Below are positions 2,180 to 24,542 of a stretch of DNA of 24,581 nt, one piece after another. Source of the stretch: a bacterium (GTDB lineage Bacteria; Planctomycetota; J058; JAJDCP01); contig JAUIEM010000112.1 of assembly GCA_030428695.1 (NCBI GenBank), positions 1 through 24,581 on the forward strand, read 5' to 3'. How positions within the stretch are numbered: the first letter of the stretch is position 1; every line of letters begins with the position of its first letter. The translations under genes were made by a program, and so were the position numbers. The notes below the pieces were generated by a model. The model searched no databases, was not told where the DNA came from, and worked only from the letters and a program-made list of their open reading frames with translations.

Positions 2180-3286
2180 TCAGTGCAGCTGCGAGCGCGC
2201 CGCGTAGTAGTCCTTCCACGCCCCCGAGCGGCGGCTCTTGACGACGTGGTTGAAGTAGTGGCGCAGGCGCTTGACGTCCTCGGGCTCGTCCTTGAGCGCC
2301 GAGCCGAGCAGGCTCTGCACCAGGTGCGCCGGGCGGATCTCGCCGCCCTCGTAGTAGTAGGCGTGCATGCCCGCGGCGTAGCCGACGGTGACCGCCTCGG
2401 CGGTCGACATCACGCTGGTCAGCGGCTCGAGGGACTTGCCGCTCGCCGTGCGCCCGTTGCGCAGCTCGTGGAAGGTGGTGACGAGCAGCTCGGTCAGGTC
2501 GGGGTGCAGGCTGAGGGGAATCTGCGCGCGGGCCAGCCAGGCGTCGGTCTCGCGCTGGACCAGCTCCATCTCCCGGCGCAGGTCGGGGATCGGATGGACG
2601 GTCTCGAAGTTGAAGCGGCGCTTGAGGGCGGCGCTCATCTCGTTGACCCCGCGGTCGCGGGTGTTCGCGGTCGCGATCACGTTGAAGCCGACCTTCGCGA
2701 AGCGGGTGCCTTCCCCTTCCAGCTCCGGGATGTGCAACACGCGGTCGCTCATCACGGAGAGCAGGCAGTCCTGGATCTCGAGCGGGCAGCGGGTGATCTC
2801 CTCGAAGCGCACGAGCTTGCCCCCGGTCAGCCCGCGGAACAGGGGGGCGGGGACCAGCGAGCGCTCGGAGGGTCCTTCGGCGAGCAGCAGCGCGTAGTTC
2901 CAGGAGTACTTGATCGCGTCCTCGGTGGTGCCCGCGCTGCCCTGGATGGTCAGGGTGGAGTCGCCGGAGATCGCCGCCGCGAGCAGCTCGCTGAGGTAGC
3001 TCTTGGCGGTGCCGGGCTCGCCGATCAACATCAGGCCACGCTGGGTCGCGAGGCTGACGATGCAGCGCTCGAGGAAGCTGCGCGCGCCGACGAACTTCGG
3101 CTGCAGCCCGCGCTCGGGGTTGCCGAGCACGAAGTCGAGGACCGCGCGCGGGCTGAGCTTCCAGCCCGGGGGCTTCGGCTGCTTCTTGTCCGCGGCCGCG
3201 AGCGTCTTCAGCTCGTCGGCGTAGAGGATCTCGGCGGACGGCCGTTGCAGCTCCTCGGTTTTTTTGGTCTTCTTGCGCTTTGCCAT
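2180..3286 (-). CDS. MoxR-like AAA+ ATPase
   Basis: A 368-residue AAA+ ATPase. It has a lysine-rich N-terminus (MAKRKKTKK), Walker A GEPGTAKS at 89-96, Walker B LVRFEE ending at E162-E163, sensor 1 at N208 in [10 protein letters not shown], and an arginine-finger-like ALKRRF near 220-225. The segment [20 protein letters not shown] and the motifs that follow closely resemble the MoxR-type ATPases usually encoded beside VWA-domain, SWIM zinc-finger and DUF5682 proteins, as I recall the family. MoxR ATPases generally act as chaperones that remodel or activate VWA-containing partners. No such partner is present here: the downstream gene is an aldo/keto reductase and the upstream gene is divergent. 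The start ATG follows a GGAGGG Shine-Dalgarno displayed in the loop of a short hairpin. Confidence 0.88.
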
Positions 3287-14061: not shown

Positions 14062-15585
14062 GTGGCACCGATCCACATCCTCCAGGTCCCCGATACCGGC
14101 ATCAGCCTCGACTTCACCGAACACGGTCCCCCGGCCGGGCTCGACGGCTGCGGGCCGGCGCTCGAAGCCCTCGCGGCCCTCGAGGGCGGGGCGCGGGCGA
14201 ACCCCGACGAGACCGGCAGCGACGGGCAGCCCGGGCGCCGCGTCGGCCACTACTGGCTGCGCGATCCCGCGCGCGCTCCGACCGGTCTGGGCGCCGAGAT
14301 CCGCGCCTCGTGGGTGGCCTGCAGCGAGCTCGCCCAGCGGTTGAAGTCCGAGCTCTCGGTGACGACGGTGCTGCATCTCGGCATCGGCGGCTCCGCGCTC
14401 GGTCCGCAGCTGCTCGCCGAGGCTCTCGCGCCCGTCGCGCCCTTCGGCGGGCTCAGCGCGCGCAGCTATCGGGTGCTCGACAACATCGACCCGGTCGGCC
14501 TGGCCGATCAGCTCGTCGGTGTCGAGCTCGCGCGCTGTCTGGTGCTGGTCGTCAGCAAGTCCGGCTCGACCCGCGAGACGATGGCCAACCTCGAGCTGCT
14601 CGCCGGGCGCTTCGCCGCGGCGAAGGTGCCGCTGGCGCCGCGCTGCGTCGCGCTGACCACGCCGGGCTCGAAGCTCGACAAGCGAGCGCAGGAGGAAGGC
14701 TGGGCCGGCTCGCTGCCGGTCTGGACCTGGGTCGGCGGGCGCACCAGCCTGACATCGTCGGTCGGCCTGTTCCCCGCCGAGCTGCTCGGCATCTCCTGCG
14801 AGGAGCTCCTCGCCGGCGCCGCGGCGATGGACCGGGCCGGACGGGCCGCGCCGGAGAAGAACCCCGCCGCCTGGCTCGCCTGTGCCTGGCGGCAGGCCCA
14901 GCGCGGGCGGCCCCGCGCGCTGGTGATGCTGCCCTACGCCGACCGCCTGGTCAGCCTCGGGCGCTACCTGCAGCAGCTGATCATGGAGTCGATCGGCAAA
15001 CGCCACGACCGCTCCGGGAACGAGATCCGCGCGGGCCTGAGCGTGTTCGGCAACAAGGGGACCACCGACCAGCACGCCTTCGTCCAGCAGCTCCGCGACG
15101 GGCCCGACGACTTCCTCGCCCACTTCCTCTCGATCGCCCGCCCCTCGGCCCCCGACCCCGCGCTCGCCGGCGGGGCGACGGCGGGCGACTGGCTGTTCGG
15201 CTTCCTGCTCGGCACCCAGCAGGCCCTGCACGAGGACGGCAAGGCCTCGCTGCAGCTCTGCCTCGAGCGCCTGGACGCGCGCAGCTTCGGAGCGCTGGTC
15301 GCGCTGTTCGAGCGGGCGGTCAGCCTGTACGCCGAGCTGCTCGACATCAACGCCTACCACCAGCCGGGAGTGCAGGCCGGGAAGCTCGCGGCCGAGGGCG
15401 CGCTCGCCGCGCAGCAGGCGCTGCTCGATGCCCTCGACGCGACGCCGCGCGGGGCCGAAGAGCTCGCCGCCCGCGCGGGCTGCGATCCGGTGCTGGCCTG
15501 GCGTCAGCTGCGGCGGCTCGCCCTCGCGAAACGGATCCGCAGCGAGCCGGGCAGCCCCGGCGCCGAGCGTTTCTCCGCCTCTTGA
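14062..15585 (+). CDS. pgi: Glucose-6-phosphate isomerase
   Basis: A 507-residue SIS-fold enzyme interconverting glucose 6-phosphate and fructose 6-phosphate in glycolysis and gluconeogenesis; cytosolic. Visible motifs are GIGGSALGP (107-115), SKSGSTRET (165-173, phosphate-binding), GGRTSLTSSVG (225-235), MESIGK with catalytic E309 and K313, NKGTTDQHAFVQQL with the conserved histidine, and NAYHQPGVQAGK near the end. The wording NKGTTDQHA/NAYHQPGV belongs to the cyanobacterial-like bacterial branch rather than the E. coli type. Two classic signature positions differ: T for F/Y in GGR(F/Y)S, and Q for E in GVExxK. The last 70 residues resemble a small winged-helix-like segment. Start GTG 14062 has GAGGGAGA upstream. 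The zinc-ribbon helicase gene follows after 82 bp. Confidence 0.95.
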   Translation: MAPIHILQVPDTGISLDFTEHGPPAGLDGCGPALEALAALEGGARANPDETGSDGQPGRRVGHYWLRDPARAPTGLGAEIRASWVACSELAQRLKSELSVTTVLHLGIGGSALGPQLLAEALAPVAPFGGLSARSYRVLDNIDPVGLADQLVGVELARCLVLVVSKSGSTRETMANLELLAGRFAAAKVPLAPRCVALTTPGSKLDKRAQEEGWAGSLPVWTWVGGRTSLTSSVGLFPAELLGISCEELLAGAAAMDRAGRAAPEKNPAAWLACAWRQAQRGRPRALVMLPYADRLVSLGRYLQQLIMESIGKRHDRSGNEIRAGLSVFGNKGTTDQHAFVQQLRDGPDDFLAHFLSIARPSAPDPALAGGATAGDWLFGFLLGTQQALHEDGKASLQLCLERLDARSFGALVALFERAVSLYAELLDINAYHQPGVQAGKLAAEGALAAQQALLDALDATPRGAEELAARAGCDPVLAWRQLRRLALAKRIRSEPGSPGAERFSAS

Positions 15586-15667: not shown

Positions 15668-18600
15668 ATGATCGCGGTCACCTGCCCCCGCTGCGCGTTG
15701 ACGATGAAGGTCGGCGACGAGCAGTCCCGCAGCAAGGTGACCTGTGACCTGTGCGGCTGCTCTTTTCTCCCGCCGCACCGCACCAGCGGGCACTTCGCGA
15801 CCTTCTCGGTCGCCGCGAGCCGCACCATCCCGTGCCCGGGCTGCGGGACGCGGTACAAGGTCGACAGGAAGCTGCTGGTCCGGAACCTGCACTGCGAGGT
15901 CTGCGAGAAGAGCTTCCCTGTCCGCCGGAGCGGCGTCCCTGTCGCCGGGAGCGTCCGCACGCGGCTGTGCCCCGTGTGCGGGCTGGCCTACAAGGTCTTC
16001 GCCGACGGCGAGGAAGAGCTGCGCTGCGACCTGTGCGAGGTCAGCTTCAGCGCCGAGCCGCCGCCGCCTGTTCCGGAGAGCCCCTCGGCGCGGCTGCGCG
16101 CGCTCGCTCCCGGGGTCGCCGCCCGGACCTGTGCGCACTGCGGGGCGCGCTATGTGTCGGGCCTCGGGGACAGCACCTGCGGGGTGTGCTCGACCTCCTT
16201 CGACGCCGAGCCCCCCGCCATCGAAGCGCGCAGCACCCCGTCCGCGCGGGTGCAGTGCCGCCAGTGTGGGACCCTGTACCGGGTCGGGGCCGGCTGTGAC
16301 GGCGAGGAATTCCCCTGCGACCTGTGCGGGCACGCCCTCGTTGTCGGTGCCTCGTGCGAAGATACGGAACCGCCCGCGCCCTCCGGAGAGACTGACGTGA
16401 TGCCTGAGACCCCCGCTGCCCGAGTCGTCAAGCTCGACGAGATGCGCCGCCTGCTGCTCGACCTGTCGCGCCGCAACCGCCTGCTCAACCACAAGCGCGG
16501 CAGCAAGCAGACCCTCGAGCTGGTCGGCGAGAGCGCCGCGGAGGTCTTCGGGCAGCTGCTCGCCGGCCGCAAGCTCGACTTCCTCGCCCGCGAGGAGGCG
16601 CCGCCCGAGGTCGCCGAGCGGCTGTTCGGCAGCGAGCGGGCGAGCGGCCAGACCGGGCGCTTCCGGCTGCCCGAGCTCGAGGGCGGGGGGCGCGATCGGC
16701 GCCTGCAGACCGCCTTCGAGGGCGGGCTGTTGCAGTCGCGGCTGCTGCACATCGCGCGCCGGGCGAAGAGCGCGTTGCTCGAGCAGGGCTACAACATCCT
16801 GTACTTGACCTTCGGCATGGTCTCCTGGCCGGACGGGGTGAAGAAGGGAAGCACCTCGCGGGCGCCTCTGGTGTTCGTGCCGGTCGAGCTGCGCCGGCCG
16901 AGTGTGCACCGGCGGCACCGGCTCGGCCCCTTCGAGGACGAGATCCTGACCAACCCGTGCCTGGTCGAGCTGTGCGCCCGGGAGTTCCGCTTCGCGCTGC
17001 CCGAGCTGGCCGGAGACGAGCCCGAGGCCCTCGAGGCCTACTTCGCGACGGTCGGGGAGACGATCGCCGAGCTGCCGGGCTGGAGCTTCGCTCCAGAGCT
17101 GCACCTCGGCCTGTTCAGCTTCGCCAAGCTGCTGATGTACCGCGACCTCGATCCGGAGAGCTGGCCGGAGAACAGCCGGCTCGACAGCCACCCGCTGGTC
17201 GCCGTCCTCGCCGGCCTGCCCGGGGCGAGCCTCGAGAAGCGCGTCGAGTTCCCCGACCCCGCCGAGCTCGATGCCCTCGACGTCAGCGAGAGCTTCCAGA
17301 TCCTCGACGCCGACGCGAGCCAGCAGGCGGCGATCCGGGCGGTGAAGGAGGGCGCGAACGTCGTGATTCAGGGGCCGCCCGGGACCGGGAAGTCGCAGAC
17401 CATCGCCAACGCCCTGTGCGAGTGCCTCGCCGCCGGCAAGACGGTGCTGTTCGTCGCCGAGAAGGCCGCCGCCCTCGAGGTCGTGCGGCGGCGGCTCAGC
17501 GATGTCGGCCTCGGCGACTTCGTGCTCGAGCTGCACAGCCGCAAGGCGAGCAAGAAGTCGGTGCTCAAGGACCTGCAGGCGGCCCTCGAGGTGCCCCTGG
17601 GCGACGAGCCCGCGGCCGCCGCCGACGCCGCCGAGCTCGCCCGCGTGCGGCAGGAGCTCAACGCCGTCCGCAGCGCCCTGCACGAGCCGGTCGAGCCCCT
17701 CGGCCTGTCGATCTTCGACGTGGTCTGCCGCTGTCTGGTGCTCGCCGATGAGCACGAGCCGGTCTGCGCGATGCCGGGGCTCGACACCTGGGACGAGGAG
17801 CAGCTGCGCCGGGCCGGCGAGCTGGTCGGGACGCTGGACCGGCGGCTCGAGCGGCTCGGCGACCCCTCCGCCGGGCCCTGGCGTGGGGCGGGCTGGACGA
17901 GCTTCGGGCTGGTCGTGCGCCAGCAGACCCAGCAGGCCCTCGACGAGCTCAGCGCGACCCTGCGCGCCCTGCAGAGCCGGGGGGCGGCGCTGGCCGAGAC
18001 CCTCGGCGCGCCGGCGCCCGGGCGGCTCGGCAGCGCACGGGGTCTGCACGCCGCCGGGCGCACGCTGCTGAAGACCCCCGACCCGGGACCGACGCGCCTG
18101 GACGATGCGACCTGGCAGGATCTCGACCCGGCCCTGGTCGCCTGGCTGGACAAGGGGGAGCGGCGCAAGCAGCTCGGTCCCACCTGGCGGCCGTACCTCG
18201 TGCCGGAGGCGGAGGAGGAGGAGGACTGGGACCAGGTGCTCGCGCGGCGCAAGGCCCACGGACGCTCGTTCTGGCGCTTCTTCCGCCCGTCCTGGTACCG
18301 CGACAACCGGCGCCTGCGCGAGGCGGCCGCCGACGGCGCGAAGGCCCTCGACCTCGCCGGCCAGATCGCGGCCCTCGAGGCCCTGGTCGAGAGCGGCGAC
18401 CTGCGCTTGGAGCTCGAGCGCGCCGGCAGCTTCGCCGAGCGGCTCGGCGGCGCCTGGCGCGGGCTCGACGGGAACTGGGACGAGTACCGCTCCCACTGCG
18501 ACAAGCTCGTCGCCGCGCGCGCGGCGATCGTCGCCGCGAACGTCGACGCCGCGCGGGCGGAGAGGGTCGTGCGCGGCGAGAAGGGCGAGCTCGAGCGGGC

Positions 18601-21304
18601 CGTCAGCGCCGCCCAGGGCGCGGTGGCTGCCTTCGAGCGGGCGTTCGAGGCCTGGCTCGCGGCCCTCGAGAGCGACGCGCAGACCTGGCTGGGCGCCGAG
18701 CTCGCCGACGCCGACCTCGAGATGCTGCACGGGCGCCTGCAGCCCCTGTTCCGCAGCATCGAGGCCGCCCACGACCGGGCGGCGTACAACGAGACCCTCG
18801 CCCGGGTGCGCGAGCTCGAGCTCGAGCCCTTCCTCGACTGGGTCCTCGGCAAGGCCGGGGAGTCGGCGCGCGGCCACCTGCCGCGGGTGTTCTCGCGGCA
18901 CTTCTACCGGCTCTGGCTCGACCGCCAGGTCGCGGCGCAGGAAGCGCTCCGGGGCTTCCGCGGCGAAGACCAGAACCGGCTGATCGAGCGCTTCGGGGCC
19001 CTCGACCGGCGCTGGATCGAGATCGGCCGCGAGCGTCTGCGCCGGCGCCTGCTCGAGCTGCGGCCCGGGCTCGGCGCCGACGCTCCGCGCAGCTCGAAGC
19101 TCGGGCTGCTCAAGGCGGAGATGCGGAAGAAGACGCGCTTCATGCCGCTGCGCAAGCTGTTCGCCGTCGCCGGGGACGTCGTGCAGAAGATCAAGCCCTG
19201 CTTCATGATGAGCCCGATCTCCGTCGCCCAGTTCCTCGAGCCGGGCGGGGTGGGCTTCGACGTCGTGATCTTCGACGAGGCCAGCCAGGTCGAGCCGGCC
19301 GACGCTTTCGGGGCGATCGCCCGCGGGCGCCAGCTGATGCTCGTCGGGGACGAGAAGCAGCTGCCCCCGACCAGCTTCTTCACGAAGCTCGACCGCGAGA
19401 CCACCCTCGAGGACGACGGGGACGACTGGTTCAAGGCCGGCGACCTCGAGAGCATCCTCGGCCTGGGCCTGGTGCACCTGCCGCACACCTGCCTGTTGCG
19501 CTGGCACTACCGGTCGCGCCACGCCTCGCTGATCGAGTTCTCGAACAAGAGCTTCTACGACGAGGGCCTGCGCATCTTCCCGAGCCCGCACATCGGCCGC
19601 GACGAGCTCGGCGTCTCGCTGCTGCACCTGCCCGACGCGGTGTACGACCGGGGCAGGACGCGGACGAACCGGGGCGAGGCCGAGGCGGTCGCCCGCGCCG
19701 TGCTGCATCACGCGCTCTCCCGTCCCGAGCTGACCCTCGGGGTCGCCGCCTTCAGCATGGCCCAGCAGTCGGCCATCGAGGACGAGATCGAAGGCCTGCG
19801 CCGGCGCACCGACCATCCCGCCATCGAGCGTTTCTTCCAGCTGCATCCCGAAGAGCCCTTCTTCGTCAAGAACCTCGAGAACGTGCAGGGCGACGAGCGC
19901 GACGTGATGTACCTCAGCGTCGGCTACGGCCGCGACGCCACGGGCCGCGTCGGCACCAACTTCGGGCCCCTGAACCAGGACGGCGGCTGGCGCCGGCTCA
20001 ACGTGCTCGTCACGCGCGCCCGGCGGCGCTGCTACGTGTTCAGCTCGATCCTCGCCGCGGACATCGACCTCAAGCGCACCAAGGCCCGCGGCGTCGTCGC
20101 CCTGCGCGACTACCTGCACTACGCCGAGCAGGGGGCGGCGCTCGAGCTCGAGCGCGCGCGGCGGGCGCCGGGCTCCGGCTTCGAGGCCGAGGTGCAGCGG
20201 AGCCTGCGGGAGATGGGCTGGGAGGTGCACACCGGCGTCGGCAACGAGGGCTTCGCGGTCGACCTCGCCGTCGTCGACCCCCGGCGGCCGGGGCGCTACC
20301 TGCTCGGGATCGAGGGCGACGGCGCGACCTACCGCTCCTCGCCGACGGCCCGCGACCGCGAGCGGCTGCGCAGCGAGGTGCTCGGCGGCCTCGGCTGGGC
20401 GCTGGCGCGGGTGTGGAGCTGGGACTGGTACCAGCAGCCGAAGAAGGCGCGCGACGCGCTCCTGGCGCAGATCAACGCCGAGCTGAAGGGCAAGCTGGTC
20501 GAGCCCGCCCCGGCGGAGAACCTGCTCTCCCTCGACATCGAGCTCGCCCCGGAGCCCGCGCCGGAGGCGACGCCGGAGGAGCCGGAACCAGACGCCGGGC
20601 CGGAGAAGCCCGCGGGCGACGCCGAGCCCGAGGGAGATGCCCCGGCGGAGCCCGCGCCGCAGCCCGCGAAGAAGCCGTCGCCGCAGCCGACGGCGGCCTC
20701 GGACGAAGCCGCGGAGCCCCGGCGCGAGGTGCGCACCCAGGCGCTCGCCGACGGTCTGAGCGAGTACGTCCCCCATCCGATGTTGATGCTCGGGGACAAG
20801 GACGCGCTGTACGCGATGGAGCCCGAGAAGCTCGCCCAGCTGATCCACAACCTCGTCTACACCGAGGGGCCGATGCTCGAGCTCGAGGCGATCAAGACCC
20901 TGGCGAGCTGGTTCCAGTCCAGAGCGACCGCGAAGCCCAAGCGCTGCTTCAAGAAGGCGCTCGCGCTGCTGCTCGAGAAGGACGAGCTGCGCCGGCGTGG
21001 CAAGTTCCTCTGGCACCCGTCCCACAGCGAGACGCGGGTGCGCTACCGCGGCGGCAACTGCCCGGTCAAGGACGCCCGCGCCATCCCGCCGGAGGAATAC
21101 GCCCAGGCGATCGTGCTCGTGCTCGAGCAGACCTTCGGCCAGCCGGAGGAGGATCTGCTGAGCAGCGCCCTGCACCTGATGGGCTACAAGGCCCGCGGCA
21201 GCCGCCTCGAGGAGGGGGCGCGCGAGGGCCTGAAGCTGCTCCGGGAGGCGGGGCGGGTGGCCGAGGACAACGCGGGCTTCGTCGTCCTCGCCAAGGAAGA
21301 CTGA
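15668..21304 (+). CDS. Zinc-ribbon array-DUF4011-SF1 helicase-nuclease-DUF3320 protein
   Basis: A 1878-residue protein. Five MJ0042-like zinc ribbons come first, with CxxC pairs at C6/9-26/29, 56/59-76/79, 101/104-120/123, 155/158-171/174 and 197/200-217/220. A DUF4011-type segment starts near 259 (MRRLLLDLSRRNRLLNHKRG). The Dna2/Nam7-like SF1 helicase has Walker A GPPGTGKS 569-576, Walker B FDEA at 1202-1205, GDEKQLPP 1227-1234, WHYRS 1279-1283, QGDERD 1407-1412 and RLNVLVTRAR 1443-1452. About 630 residues separate Walker A and B. A Vsr/MTES_1575-like nuclease spans about 1500-1605 (E1506/E1508, D1532, E1549-x-D1551). A Pro/Glu/Ala-rich linker (about 1612-1684) leads to a DUF3320-like C-terminus (from about 1717). 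DUF4011-helicase-Vsr proteins are, as I recall, antiphage factors (Hhe). The ribbons may bind nucleic acid. All catalytic motifs look intact. Confidence 0.9.
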   Translation: MIAVTCPRCALTMKVGDEQSRSKVTCDLCGCSFLPPHRTSGHFATFSVAASRTIPCPGCGTRYKVDRKLLVRNLHCEVCEKSFPVRRSGVPVAGSVRTRLCPVCGLAYKVFADGEEELRCDLCEVSFSAEPPPPVPESPSARLRALAPGVAARTCAHCGARYVSGLGDSTCGVCSTSFDAEPPAIEARSTPSARVQCRQCGTLYRVGAGCDGEEFPCDLCGHALVVGASCEDTEPPAPSGETDVMPETPAARVVKLDEMRRLLLDLSRRNRLLNHKRGSKQTLELVGESAAEVFGQLLAGRKLDFLAREEAPPEVAERLFGSERASGQTGRFRLPELEGGGRDRRLQTAFEGGLLQSRLLHIARRAKSALLEQGYNILYLTFGMVSWPDGVKKGSTSRAPLVFVPVELRRPSVHRRHRLGPFEDEILTNPCLVELCAREFRFALPELAGDEPEALEAYFATVGETIAELPGWSFAPELHLGLFSFAKLLMYRDLDPESWPENSRLDSHPLVAVLAGLPGASLEKRVEFPDPAELDALDVSESFQILDADASQQAAIRAVKEGANVVIQGPPGTGKSQTIANALCECLAAGKTVLFVAEKAAALEVVRRRLSDVGLGDFVLELHSRKASKKSVLKDLQAALEVPLGDEPAAAADAAELARVRQELNAVRSALHEPVEPLGLSIFDVVCRCLVLADEHEPVCAMPGLDTWDEEQLRRAGELVGTLDRRLERLGDPSAGPWRGAGWTSFGLVVRQQTQQALDELSATLRALQSRGAALAETLGAPAPGRLGSARGLHAAGRTLLKTPDPGPTRLDDATWQDLDPALVAWLDKGERRKQLGPTWRPYLVPEAEEEEDWDQVLARRKAHGRSFWRFFRPSWYRDNRRLREAAADGAKALDLAGQIAALEALVESGDLRLELERAGSFAERLGGAWRGLDGNWDEYRSHCDKLVAARAAIVAANVDAARAERVVRGEKGELERAVSAAQGAVAAFERAFEAWLAALESDAQTWLGAELADADLEMLHGRLQPLFRSIEAAHDRAAYNETLARVRELELEPFLDWVLGKAGESARGHLPRVFSRHFYRLWLDRQVAAQEALRGFRGEDQNRLIERFGALDRRWIEIGRERLRRRLLELRPGLGADAPRSSKLGLLKAEMRKKTRFMPLRKLFAVAGDVVQKIKPCFMMSPISVAQFLEPGGVGFDVVIFDEASQVEPADAFGAIARGRQLMLVGDEKQLPPTSFFTKLDRETTLEDDGDDWFKAGDLESILGLGLVHLPHTCLLRWHYRSRHASLIEFSNKSFYDEGLRIFPSPHIGRDELGVSLLHLPDAVYDRGRTRTNRGEAEAVARAVLHHALSRPELTLGVAAFSMAQQSAIEDEIEGLRRRTDHPAIERFFQLHPEEPFFVKNLENVQGDERDVMYLSVGYGRDATGRVGTNFGPLNQDGGWRRLNVLVTRARRRCYVFSSILAADIDLKRTKARGVVALRDYLHYAEQGAALELERARRAPGSGFEAEVQRSLREMGWEVHTGVGNEGFAVDLAVVDPRRPGRYLLGIEGDGATYRSSPTARDRERLRSEVLGGLGWALARVWSWDWYQQPKKARDALLAQINAELKGKLVEPAPAENLLSLDIELAPEPAPEATPEEPEPDAGPEKPAGDAEPEGDAPAEPAPQPAKKPSPQPTAASDEAAEPRREVRTQALADGLSEYVPHPMLMLGDKDALYAMEPEKLAQLIHNLVYTEGPMLELEAIKTLASWFQSRATAKPKRCFKKALALLLEKDELRRRGKFLWHPSHSETRVRYRGGNCPVKDARAIPPEEYAQAIVLVLEQTFGQPEEDLLSSALHLMGYKARGSRLEEGAREGLKLLREAGRVAEDNAGFVVLAKED
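16385..16402 (+). promoter_or_regulatory. Possible internal translation start of the helicase
   Basis: An in-frame ATG at 16400 (M245, MPETPAARVVKLDEM) follows GGAGAG at 16385-16390. It lies exactly between the zinc-ribbon array and the DUF4011 segment. Translation from here would give a 1634-residue form with the conventional architecture. Confidence 0.4.
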
Positions 21305-21535: not shown

Positions 21536-23854
21536 ATGCGAGACGAGACCTCGAGCGCGAACCCCGGCTTCGCCCTCGGCCAGCTCGCCCGGGCGCTGAA
21601 GACCGCGCGGGAACACCCCGACGCGTCCACCCGGGAGCGCGCGCGGGACCGGGCCGAGGCCTGGCTGCGCACCTTCACCGGCATGGTCTCGGGGCGCCTG
21701 CGGGTCGGCGACCGGCAGCCGCTCGACGGCGTGCCCGCGTGGGCGACGCCGCGGGTGCAGCGGGGCGGTTTCCCGACCGGAGAGCTGCTCGCGGGCGGGC
21801 CGCTGCTACCCTTCGAGCGCGCGCTGCTGGCGGAACGGGGGGAACGCCCCGCAGGCGGCGAGCGCCGGGCCCTCAACACCTGGTTCGCGAGCCCGGAGGG
21901 CCAGGCGCGCCTGAGCACCTGGCTGGCGAGCGGGGCCTACCGCGTGCGGGTGCCGGAGGAAGGCGCGCTGGCGGCGCTGTGCTGGCTCTTGTGCGCCGGC
22001 CGGGACGACGAGGCGGACGCGCTGCTGGCGGCGATCGAGCCCTGGTTCGACCGCCTGCGCTTCTATCCGCGGCCGGCCGACAGCGCGCTGCCGGACGGCG
22101 ACACGGTCGCACTGCAGGACGTCGCGACCACGCGGGAACAGCTCCGGGCCGTGCGGCAGAACACGCGCTTCGCGGCGATGCGCGAGGCCATCGAGGTGTG
22201 GGCGCCGCTGTACGACCGCTGCCTCGCGCTGTTCGCGCAGACCGTCGAGGGGCCGCATCCAGAGCTGGACGCGCGGCGCCCGGACGGCTCCTGCGCGATC
22301 CGCGGCGGCTGGCCCTGTCAGCGCTATCCCGCCGGCTGGGCGGAGCACGGCCGGGCGCTGCTCGCCGACTACGAGGCGGCCTGCCAGCGGCACCGGCGCT
22401 GCGGCCGGCAGCGCGATCCGCGCCGCTCCTTCGCCATCCTGCGGGCGGCGCTCGCGCGCTGCCTGGCCGATCCCGCGCAGCTGACCGGGCGGGAGGTCGG
22501 CCGCGTGCGGATGGTGCTCGCCTGCGCGGCCCGCAAGCGCGGCGTGCCGGGCTCCACGCGGCACGTGACCTACCGGGCGGACCAGGCGCGCCAGCTCTGG
22601 CACCTGCCGTCGGGAGAGGCCGCGCTGCTGCTCGCCGCCCGCCTCGACGGGCTCGACCCCGAGGCCGGGCTGGCGACGCCCGAGGCGCACTGCGGGCCGC
22701 TGGGCGCGGCCGATGGCGCGCCGGAGCACGCCTGGGGGGCAGGGCTTCCCGAGGGCCTGCAGCGCATCGTCCTGCGCAGCCTCGAGGCGGCGCCCGAGGA
22801 GCTGATCGCGTGGGGCGTGCTGTCGTCCGCGGAGCTCTTTGCCCAGGTGCTGCCCGAGCTCTCCGGCCGCGCCCTGGTCACCGGCACGGAGCCGAGCCTG
22901 CGCGGGCTGCTGCGGCAGCTGTACGGGGCCTTCCGGCGGCGACGCTCGCTGCTGCTGCTCCAGCTGCAGAGCCAGGTGCGCCTCGGGGAGCTGCCCTGGG
23001 TCGCGCCCTTCTGGGGGAACGAGGGCACCGCCGCCGCGCGGGAAGCCGCCCGGGCGCTGCTGGTGCAGGTCGTCGTGCTCGCCCTGCGCAGCTGGCCCCA
23101 GGCGCTGCTGCCCAACCCGCTCCTCACCGAGCTGCGCCCCCTCGCGCGGGCCGCCGGCCTCGAGCTCCCGCTGGTGCCCGAGCTCGCCGCGGACATCTTC
23201 CAGGGGGCCTTCGCCGGGCGGTTCCTCCGCGCCGCCCAGCACAGCGCGACCGTGCTCGAGGGGCGGCTGTACGCGCGCTACTACCAGCTCCCGGCCGAGG
23301 CGCTGCTCGGCCTCGACGACATCGCGCCCCTGCCCTGGGGCCCGCGGGCCTCGAAGGGCTTCACCGCGCTGTGCTACCAGCGCGCCGGGCTGGCGCCGCC
23401 GAAGCGGGGGCGCTTCCGCCCCGAGGTCGGCGGGGCGGTGATCGAGCAGGCGCAGATCCTGACCACCCACAACCTCGCGGCGCTGTGGGAGGCGCTCGCG
23501 CTCGGCGAGGCGCTCGACCCCGCGGCCCTCGCCCGGCGCTGCCTGGAGTGGATCGCCGCCACGCTCGCTCCGCCCCGCCCGCGCCGCGCCCGGCTGCGCC
23601 GCATCAAGAACGCCGCCTACGCCTGGCGCCAGATGGTGTTCTTCCTGTCGTGGCTCGAGCACCCGCTTCAGGAGGCCTTCGCCGAGACCGCGCGCGGCCT
23701 GGTCGAGGAGCGGGAACCGGCCCTCGCCGCGCGCCTCGAGCCGGCCTTCGTCGGTCTCGACCAGGCCGTGGCCGGGGAGGTCCCGCAGGGGGCCGGCCGG
23801 CCCTTCCTCGGCTGGACGACGACGGGGAAGCACTGGTTGCTCGACGTCCCCTGA
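21536..23854 (+). CDS. Large unrecognised helical protein next to the helicase-nuclease
   Basis: A 772-residue predicted soluble, almost entirely helical protein. The N-terminal part (NPGFALGQLARALKTAREHP, then AEAWLRTFTGMVSGRLRVGD and PAWATPRVQRGGFPTGELLA) looks like a conserved family signature, not a chance ORF. Cysteine-rich spots occur around CAIRGGWPCQRYP and CQRHRRCGRQ. There is no Walker motif, nuclease motif, signal peptide or clear transmembrane helix. ATG 21536 is chosen because GGGGGA/GGAAG precedes it; the in-frame extension to 21359 would run through the repeat element. I have an impression that similar uncharacterised proteins exist in actinobacteria and cyanobacteria, but cannot name a domain. 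The gap to the helicase holds the repeat doublet, so cotranscription is uncertain. A role with the helicase is only suggested by position. Confidence 0.75.
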   Translation: MRDETSSANPGFALGQLARALKTAREHPDASTRERARDRAEAWLRTFTGMVSGRLRVGDRQPLDGVPAWATPRVQRGGFPTGELLAGGPLLPFERALLAERGERPAGGERRALNTWFASPEGQARLSTWLASGAYRVRVPEEGALAALCWLLCAGRDDEADALLAAIEPWFDRLRFYPRPADSALPDGDTVALQDVATTREQLRAVRQNTRFAAMREAIEVWAPLYDRCLALFAQTVEGPHPELDARRPDGSCAIRGGWPCQRYPAGWAEHGRALLADYEAACQRHRRCGRQRDPRRSFAILRAALARCLADPAQLTGREVGRVRMVLACAARKRGVPGSTRHVTYRADQARQLWHLPSGEAALLLAARLDGLDPEAGLATPEAHCGPLGAADGAPEHAWGAGLPEGLQRIVLRSLEAAPEELIAWGVLSSAELFAQVLPELSGRALVTGTEPSLRGLLRQLYGAFRRRRSLLLLQLQSQVRLGELPWVAPFWGNEGTAAAREAARALLVQVVVLALRSWPQALLPNPLLTELRPLARAAGLELPLVPELAADIFQGAFAGRFLRAAQHSATVLEGRLYARYYQLPAEALLGLDDIAPLPWGPRASKGFTALCYQRAGLAPPKRGRFRPEVGGAVIEQAQILTTHNLAALWEALALGEALDPAALARRCLEWIAATLAPPRPRRARLRRIKNAAYAWRQMVFFLSWLEHPLQEAFAETARGLVEEREPALAARLEPAFVGLDQAVAGEVPQGAGRPFLGWTTTGKHWLLDVP

Positions 23855-23981: not shown

Positions 23982-24542
23982 ATGCTCACATTCACCGTCA
24001 CCGACCGCGGCCAGCCCCTGTACGACGAAGCGCTGCGCTTCGCGCAGGAACGCTACCGCCGCACCCATCAGGCCGCCCTGGACAGCGTCGCCCCACGGCT
24101 GCTGGTCGCGCACCAGAGCGGGCGGCTGCGCGGCTGCCTCGGGCTGACCTGCGCGGCCTCCGCGCCGCTGCTCGCCGAGCGTTACCTCGACGCCGGGCTC
24201 GAGGCGACCATCGCCGCCCGCACGGGCTGCCAGCCGCTGCGCCGCGCGATCGTCGAGATCGGCAGCCTGGCCGCGACAAGCGCCCGGGTCGCCCTCGCCC
24301 TCTTGCAGGCGGCGCCGGCGGCGCTGCAGGACGGCTACCGCTACGCCCTGGTCACCGCGACCCGCCTCGTGCGCCGGCTGATGCGGCGGGCGGGGATGGT
24401 CCCGCTGACCCTCGGCCCCGCCCGCAAGGAAGCCCTGCCCGCCGGCCAGCAGCAGGCCTGGGGACGGTACTACGAGGCCGACCCCCAGGTGATGCTGCTC
24501 GATCTCCACCCCATCGCCGGAGGACTCTCCCATGCTGCGTGA
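23982..24542 (+). CDS. Thermostable hemolysin-family protein
   Basis: A 186-residue protein matching the thermostable hemolysin family (T_hemolysin, GNAT-like fold). Visible features are APRLLVAHQSGRLRGCLGLT, FLEQYLD-like LLAERYLDAGLEATIAARTG, the signature RRAIVEIGSLAATS, the YALVTATRLVRRLMRRAGMV region, and the terminal GRYYEADPQVMLLDL. Despite the name, most members are not shown to lyse cells. They commonly sit before an AMP-binding (acyl-CoA ligase-like) gene, which suggests an acyl-transfer role (from memory and inference). ATG 23982 is preferred over the upstream in-frame start at 23883 because GAAGGAGG lies about 6 bases before it and the family N-terminus begins there. Its end overlaps the next start by 11 bp, so the two are translationally coupled. 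Confidence 0.85.
   Translation: MLTFTVTDRGQPLYDEALRFAQERYRRTHQAALDSVAPRLLVAHQSGRLRGCLGLTCAASAPLLAERYLDAGLEATIAARTGCQPLRRAIVEIGSLAATSARVALALLQAAPAALQDGYRYALVTATRLVRRLMRRAGMVPLTLGPARKEALPAGQQQAWGRYYEADPQVMLLDLHPIAGGLSHAA

Follow-up and report, generated by a model that had tools for sequence, protein, structure and literature searches.

What could a large helicase-nuclease gain from a row of zinc ribbons at its front end? The question is raised by a gene on a 24,581-nucleotide stretch of planctomycetotal DNA (NCBI assembly GCA_030428695.1, contig JAUIEM010000112.1; hereafter the window), whose product carries five tandem zinc ribbons ahead of a DUF4011 domain, a superfamily 1 (SF1) helicase and a Vsr-like nuclease. 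Comparison with family models and relatives shows that the core of this window protein is already known, and that the ribbon-headed N-terminus is new to it.

The window gene encodes five predicted zinc ribbons and a helicase-nuclease core

The forward-strand frame is uninterrupted from the ATG at 15668 to the stop codon ending at 21304, giving 1878 residues (Table 1). A preliminary description, made from the letters and their open reading frames, had placed five CxxC-(12-16)-CxxC ribbons ahead of DUF4011, SF1 helicase and Vsr-like nuclease in this single open frame, and translation together with Pfam confirmed the arrangement. The N-terminus has ten CxxC knuckles (first residues 6, 26, 56, 76, 101, 120, 155, 171, 197 and 217), arranged as five pairs with internal spacings of 16, 16, 15, 12 and 16 residues; the remaining 1633 residues contain none. 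When residues 1-245, with their 23 Cys, were shuffled at constant composition (n = 20000), no more than two such pairs ever appeared, and shuffles of the whole protein (n = 5000) never gave more than one. As zinc-ribbon domains, the pairs are recognised by Pfam Zn_ribbon_4 when residues 1-256 are scanned alone (33.9 bits versus a cut-off of 30.3, over four stretches) and missed by the NCBIfam MJ0042 model TIGR02098 (18.3 versus 20.9); a whole-protein Pfam scan at E ≤ 0.05 lists no zinc ribbons. An AlphaFold2 model of residues 1-545, built from 32 sequences, has a mean predicted local distance difference test (pLDDT) score of 78.7 and a predicted template modelling score of 0.57. Every ribbon is modelled with paired strands (ribbon 1 at pLDDT 82-86) and the linkers fall below 50, so the array is predicted to resemble beads on a string. 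Nearly the same strands were obtained for residues 1-255 from two sequences, at 53.6.

In the whole-protein scan, DUF4011, AAA_11, AAA_12, AAA_30 and MTES_1575 all passed their Pfam cut-offs. The protein thus holds DUF4011, a split SF1 helicase and an MTES_1575 nuclease in one chain, as do members of the DUF4011/MTES_1575 (PDC-S37-like) class. The core had been described as complete; this is upheld for these three parts, with the DUF3320 part remaining below its cut-off (16.3 versus 25 bits), although the full-length PDC-S37 and ProA models still align to residues 1868 and 1841, respectively. The PADLOC model PDC-S37 scores 1470 bits over residues 255-1868, from model position 9, and the NCBIfam anti-phage ProA model NF058533 scores 1356 bits, with residues 241-1841 aligned to model positions 345-1902. 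Both models are filed under phage defence by their databases, in agreement with the earlier view that the core belongs to a helicase-nuclease class implicated in it. The helicase motifs GPPGTGKS, DEAS and QGDERD are present in an alignment of 120 proteins that includes the window protein. Among aligned proteins with a residue at the position, the nuclease residues D1532, E1549 and D1551 are shared by 113/118, 111/118 and 118/118; we take these residues and the helicase motifs to be catalytic. The closest solved structure by sequence is the UPF1-like helicase SMUBP-2 (E 3e-10), followed by Sen1 and NAM7.

The array is conserved in one relative and very rare

A second protein, P0002 (unnamed at NCBI, 1938 residues), is 54% identical to the window protein over residues 1-600. 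At 43% identity, every one of the 20 ribbon cysteines is retained and the ribbons come in the same order, and residues 1-84 align without gaps; its linkers are longer, and an extra CxxC precedes ribbon 5. Identity is 55% for ribbon 1, 76% for ribbon 2 and 47, 46 and 41% for ribbons 3, 4 and 5. In the core, the values are 62% for DUF4011, 75 and 76% for the helicase blocks, 50% for the stretch between them (701-1090), 78% for the nuclease, 43% for the linker that follows and 56% for the C-terminus, placing ribbon 2 on a par with the helicase blocks. Ribbons 1 and 2 are basic in both proteins (+2 and +6 here, +4 and +3 in P0002); ribbon 3 is acidic in both (-3), ribbon 4 carries -1 here and +3 in P0002, and ribbon 5 carries -1 in both. 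When single ribbons were compared, the positional counterpart was the best match in 9/10 cases, the exception being ribbon 5 of one protein, which prefers ribbon 1 of the other (B5 to A1). This suggests that the array was probably already complete before the two proteins diverged.

Protein searches covered 5.8 billion proteins and were word-based, so that diverged arrays lacking shared five-residue words could be missed. With residues 1-245 as query, only the window protein and P0002 were returned, from 1673 candidates, and no stand-alone version of the ribbon part came up in a search of the same type. For the DUF4011 relatives, 5648 of 7994 scored candidates matched. The best 120 were listed by similarity to residues 1-600, an ordering that favours ribbon carriers. 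CxxC pairs occur in six of these 120: five N-terminal pairs in the window protein and P0002, one N-terminal pair in P0020, and C-terminal pairs in P0098 and P0099 (one each) and P0105 (two). The preliminary description took homologues that all start near residue 245 as a pattern that would speak against its reading. This is nearly the case: 103 of the 120 have a recognisable DUF4011 start motif, which falls among the first 40 residues in 97 of them, at 41-80 in three and beyond 80 in three. But P0002 has the whole array and P0020 one ribbon. The three beyond 80 are the window protein, P0002 and P0066, whose extension holds a single CxxC. A survey of genome collections gave 115 loci. The DUF4011 start was readable in 95; in the other 20 the match set in too late, and these were left aside. 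Three pairs are duplicate retrievals of the same gene (L039/L056, L017/L091 and L040/L101). Extension length was measured by a script whose values are too high for some loci, owing to matches that set in late, start codons called mechanically and the ends of contigs; by this measure, up to 60 residues precede DUF4011 in 70 loci, 61-200 in 9 and more than 200 in 16. Ribbon arrays are absent from all 95, and the single CxxC pair seen in each of two loci lies at or past the computed DUF4011 start. No CxxC lies ahead of DUF4011 in 18 further loci (13 from IMG/VR, 5 from plasmids). This is a genuine array, and a very rare one. A literature search by title and abstract, with subscription papers mostly outside its reach, found no description of ribbons fused to DUF4011. 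The suggestion of a possibly undescribed variant is therefore kept in a narrower form, namely an N-terminal variant of a known helicase-nuclease, conserved in P0002.

In the tree, the window protein and P0002 pair with support 1.0, and a wider group that adds P0020 and two ribbonless proteins has 0.876. P0105, P0098 and P0099, with one or two C-terminal ribbons each, form a separate clade (0.999). This separation suggests that ribbons were probably gained more than once within the DUF4011 family.

The array stands in the place of the ProA N-terminal module

The ProA match of the window protein starts at model position 345, and the N-terminal module of ProA (model positions ~1-344) is absent. 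A single long N-terminus from the survey, that of L057, was profiled against ProA and fills model positions 1-355 with 389.7 bits, which places the array where a module of ~350 residues stands in L057. Of the 16 long extensions, 10 have one or both of two short motifs of this module, identified by eye. Pfam names no domain in the L057-type module; motifs such as GxCxD and GHAFxxxW suggest a beta-sandwich and a transglutaminase-like domain. Such a reading is in line with the giant proteins combining HEPN, transglutaminase-like, helicase, Vsr and winged-helix domains that are described in the available part of PMC3710099. The nearest relatives of the window protein lack both the array and the ProA module, a pattern that fits replacement and plain addition alike.

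Separately, DUF4011 proteins on five IMG/VR contigs (L117, L118, L122, L123 and L128) have N-terminal extensions of 374-383 residues that resemble the ProA-type module by eye.

Genomic context and distribution

Apart from the genes in Table 1, the window holds rhomboid, GntR, DAHP synthase, AraC regulator and aldo/keto reductase genes. Matches to the whole protein were found in 437/72556 plasmid records and 2/50697 phage records, and matches to the DUF4011 part alone in 311/72556 and 1/50697; the plasmid matches are not independent, since 220 of the 311 are from Klebsiella. Five plasmid loci were opened, chosen by hand from 30 listed. Three have, respectively, a SIR2-family gene, a type I-E CRISPR-Cas system and two DUF262 genes; the fourth has a RecD-like helicase with WYL and PD-(D/E)XK genes, and the fifth a toxin-antitoxin pair and another helicase. 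Residues 1-600 match (E ≤ 0.001) in 30/297 and 151/392 genomes of two phyla, counts that include weak, helicase-only matches. In Pseudomonas aeruginosa, a defence hotspot is bordered on its right by a conserved DUF4011 gene, present in all isolates examined according to the available part of PMC10250203, a position that fits either a defence or a housekeeping role.

Table 1 Features of the helicase-nuclease gene and nearby genes in the window.
Feature	Positions	Strand	Details
Whole gene	15668-21304	+	1878 residues; five-ribbon N-terminus, DUF4011, SF1 helicase, MTES_1575 nuclease, DUF3320-like C-terminus
Zinc ribbon 1	15683-15754	+	C6-C29, CPRC-x16-CDLC; net basic; 55% identity with P0002 (residues 1-40)
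Linker, ribbons 1-2	15776-15829	+	Residues 37-54, HRxxGxFATFxVxxSRTI; conserved and ungapped in P0002; residues 37-49 at pLDDT <50
Zinc ribbon 2	15833-15904	+	C56-C79, CPGC-x16-CEVC; net basic; most conserved ribbon, 76% identity with P0002 (residues 51-88)
Zinc ribbon 3	15968-16036	+	C101-C123, CPVC-x15-CDLC; net charge -3 here and in P0002
Zinc ribbon 4	16130-16189	+	C155-C174, CAHC-x12-CGVC
Zinc ribbon 5	16256-16327	+	C197-C220, CRQC-x16-CDLC
DUF4011	16454-16969	+	Residues 263-434; Pfam 123.7 bits
SF1 helicase, N-terminal part	17312-17497	+	AAA_30 match, residues 549-610; Walker A GPPGTGKS 569-576
SF1 helicase, C-terminal part	19253-20044	+	Residues 1196-1459; DEAS 1203, VGDEKQLPP 1226, VQGDERD 1406
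MTES_1575 Vsr-like nuclease domain	20180-20473	+	Residues 1505-1602; Pfam 101.9 bits
DUF3320-like stretch	20801-20932	+	Residues 1712-1755; below Pfam cut-off
Phosphoglucose isomerase	14062-15585	+	Directly upstream; C-terminal DprA-type winged-helix match (Pfam, 24.7 bits, cut-off 22.9)
753-residue frame, possible partner gene	21595-23854	+	Directly downstream; no Pfam, NCBIfam or PADLOC match at thresholds used
Thermostable hemolysin family	23997-24542		Near window end; Pfam 135.4 bits
AAA_5 gene	2180-3286		12 kb from the helicase-nuclease

Candidate roles of the ribbon array

The account that we favour, tentatively and as a near-even call, is a single-protein DUF4011/MTES_1575 helicase-nuclease of the ProA/PDC-S37 kind that probably acts against phage or invading DNA, with the five tandem ribbons, at the position of the ProA module, as a predicted recognition head. 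The motor would translocate along nucleic acid and the Vsr-like nuclease would cut it, as expected for the family. Ribbons 1 and 2, conserved and basic, may form the head that brings the enzyme to DNA, RNA or a complex on it, and ribbons 3-5 with their flexible linkers could add reach or avidity. This account draws on the core scores (1470 bits for PDC-S37, 1356 bits for ProA), the conserved helicase and nuclease motifs and the likeness to SMUBP-2; on ribbons 1-2, gap-free with P0002 and basic in both proteins, and on the paired strands modelled in each ribbon; and on the preponderance of plasmid over phage matches, the defence-type genes by three opened plasmid loci and the C-terminal ribbons of relatives. 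A defensive role is probable by analogy with the family, and a role of the head in recognition is suggested by its position, conservation and charge.

Several observations weigh against this account. The ProA score lies below the equivalog cut-off of 1500, and the Hhe equivalog (NCBIfam NF042953) reaches 909.6 bits against a cut-off of 2000. The shortfall for ProA is not special to the window protein, because the ribbonless P0003 (1415), the single-ribbon P0020 (1412) and P0105 with its C-terminal ribbons (1321) also stay below 1500, as does P0002 (1373). PADLOC gave no match in the 12 other proteins scanned from the ~17 in the 24.6-kb window, and no defence island was recognised at the locus within that set, with ~5 genes outside the scan; the recognised neighbours are mostly metabolic or regulatory. 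Only two array carriers were found by the word-based search. Ribbon 2, the best conserved, has block means of only 56-77 pLDDT. Finally, fold searches gave no match at E 0.001, the best weak rows being RING-like and IBR folds.

A serious rival, if on balance an unlikely one, is that the ribbons form a protein-docking head, by which the helicase-nuclease would be anchored to a protein partner of host or phage origin (a polymerase, say, or another defence protein), leaving the nucleic acid to the motor. The weak fold rows, which also include chain I of RNA polymerase I, do not choose between nucleic-acid and protein binding. Small zinc domains look alike whatever they bind, none of the fold matches reached significance, and the two best-conserved ribbons are basic, all of which count against docking.

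We consider it improbable that the helicase-nuclease serves chromosomal repair or genome maintenance and has no anti-phage role, its ribbons binding damaged or branched host DNA. In favour of this, genes for phosphoglucose isomerase, DAHP synthase, rhomboid and aldo/keto reductase lie nearby, and the presence of a DUF4011 gene in every P. aeruginosa isolate examined (PMC10250203, available part) points the same way. However, the spread across the two phyla is patchy, the DUF4011 part is carried on plasmids, and the closest models are filed as anti-phage.

That the functional enzyme starts downstream at M245 or M259, with the ribbons dispensable or an alternative N-terminus, is very improbable: the ATG at 16400 (M245) lies 11 bases past a GGAG (16385-16402), which could yield a ribbonless isoform, and most listed homologues begin near DUF4011, but neither methionine is kept in P0002 (at the protein level and for Met only, its linker is Met-free and the closest Met follows the M259 position by three residues), the 20 cysteines and their order are retained there at 43% identity, and the ribbon stretch has a third-position GC of 0.91, like coding DNA here.

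A recognition head of ribbons would also fit a broader idea, which we regard as doubtful: that DUF4011 helicase-nucleases have at their N-terminus a slot for interchangeable recognition modules, which may be empty or hold the ProA module, HEPN and transglutaminase-like domains, one ribbon or five, and which is filled here by an undescribed multivalent five-ribbon reader choosing the nucleic acid or phage complex to be attacked. If so, a widespread, little-understood and probably defensive family of large enzymes would retarget by exchange of its front module while keeping motor and nuclease, and the compact 90-residue ribbon pair would offer a tractable handle on what the family recognises, a family-wide question. 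If not, the array is still a clear and conserved case of zinc ribbons multiplied on a helicase-nuclease.

Comparison with known systems

The likeness to the CoCoNuT systems is one of working principle only: the type III-B protein CnuH is a helicase fused to a Vsr-like nuclease, and zinc ribbons likewise occur in CoCoNuT systems, possible nucleic-acid binding being proposed by the authors for one of them (available part of PMC11090510). DUF4011 does not occur in the available text of that paper, and Pfam recognised none of the McrB/McrC-type partner genes expected of a type III CoCoNuT beside the window gene; the one AAA_5 gene detected (2180-3286) is 12 kb away. Pfam reports in the window protein neither the HEPN nor the transglutaminase-like domains that are carried by giants of the MTES_1575 type (PMC3710099, available part). 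Hhe (NF042953), for which the name 'Gao Hhe' is used in the available part of PMC11291487, shares helicase and nuclease, at 910 bits far under its cut-off of 2000. PDC-S37, a candidate defence category of PADLOC for which the literature search found nothing by name, shares the core; its model aligns only from residue 255 onwards (model position 9) and so leaves the array uncovered. ProA (NF058533) likewise has the core alignment in common with the window protein, and differs in its first ~350 positions, in whose place the window protein has five zinc ribbons.
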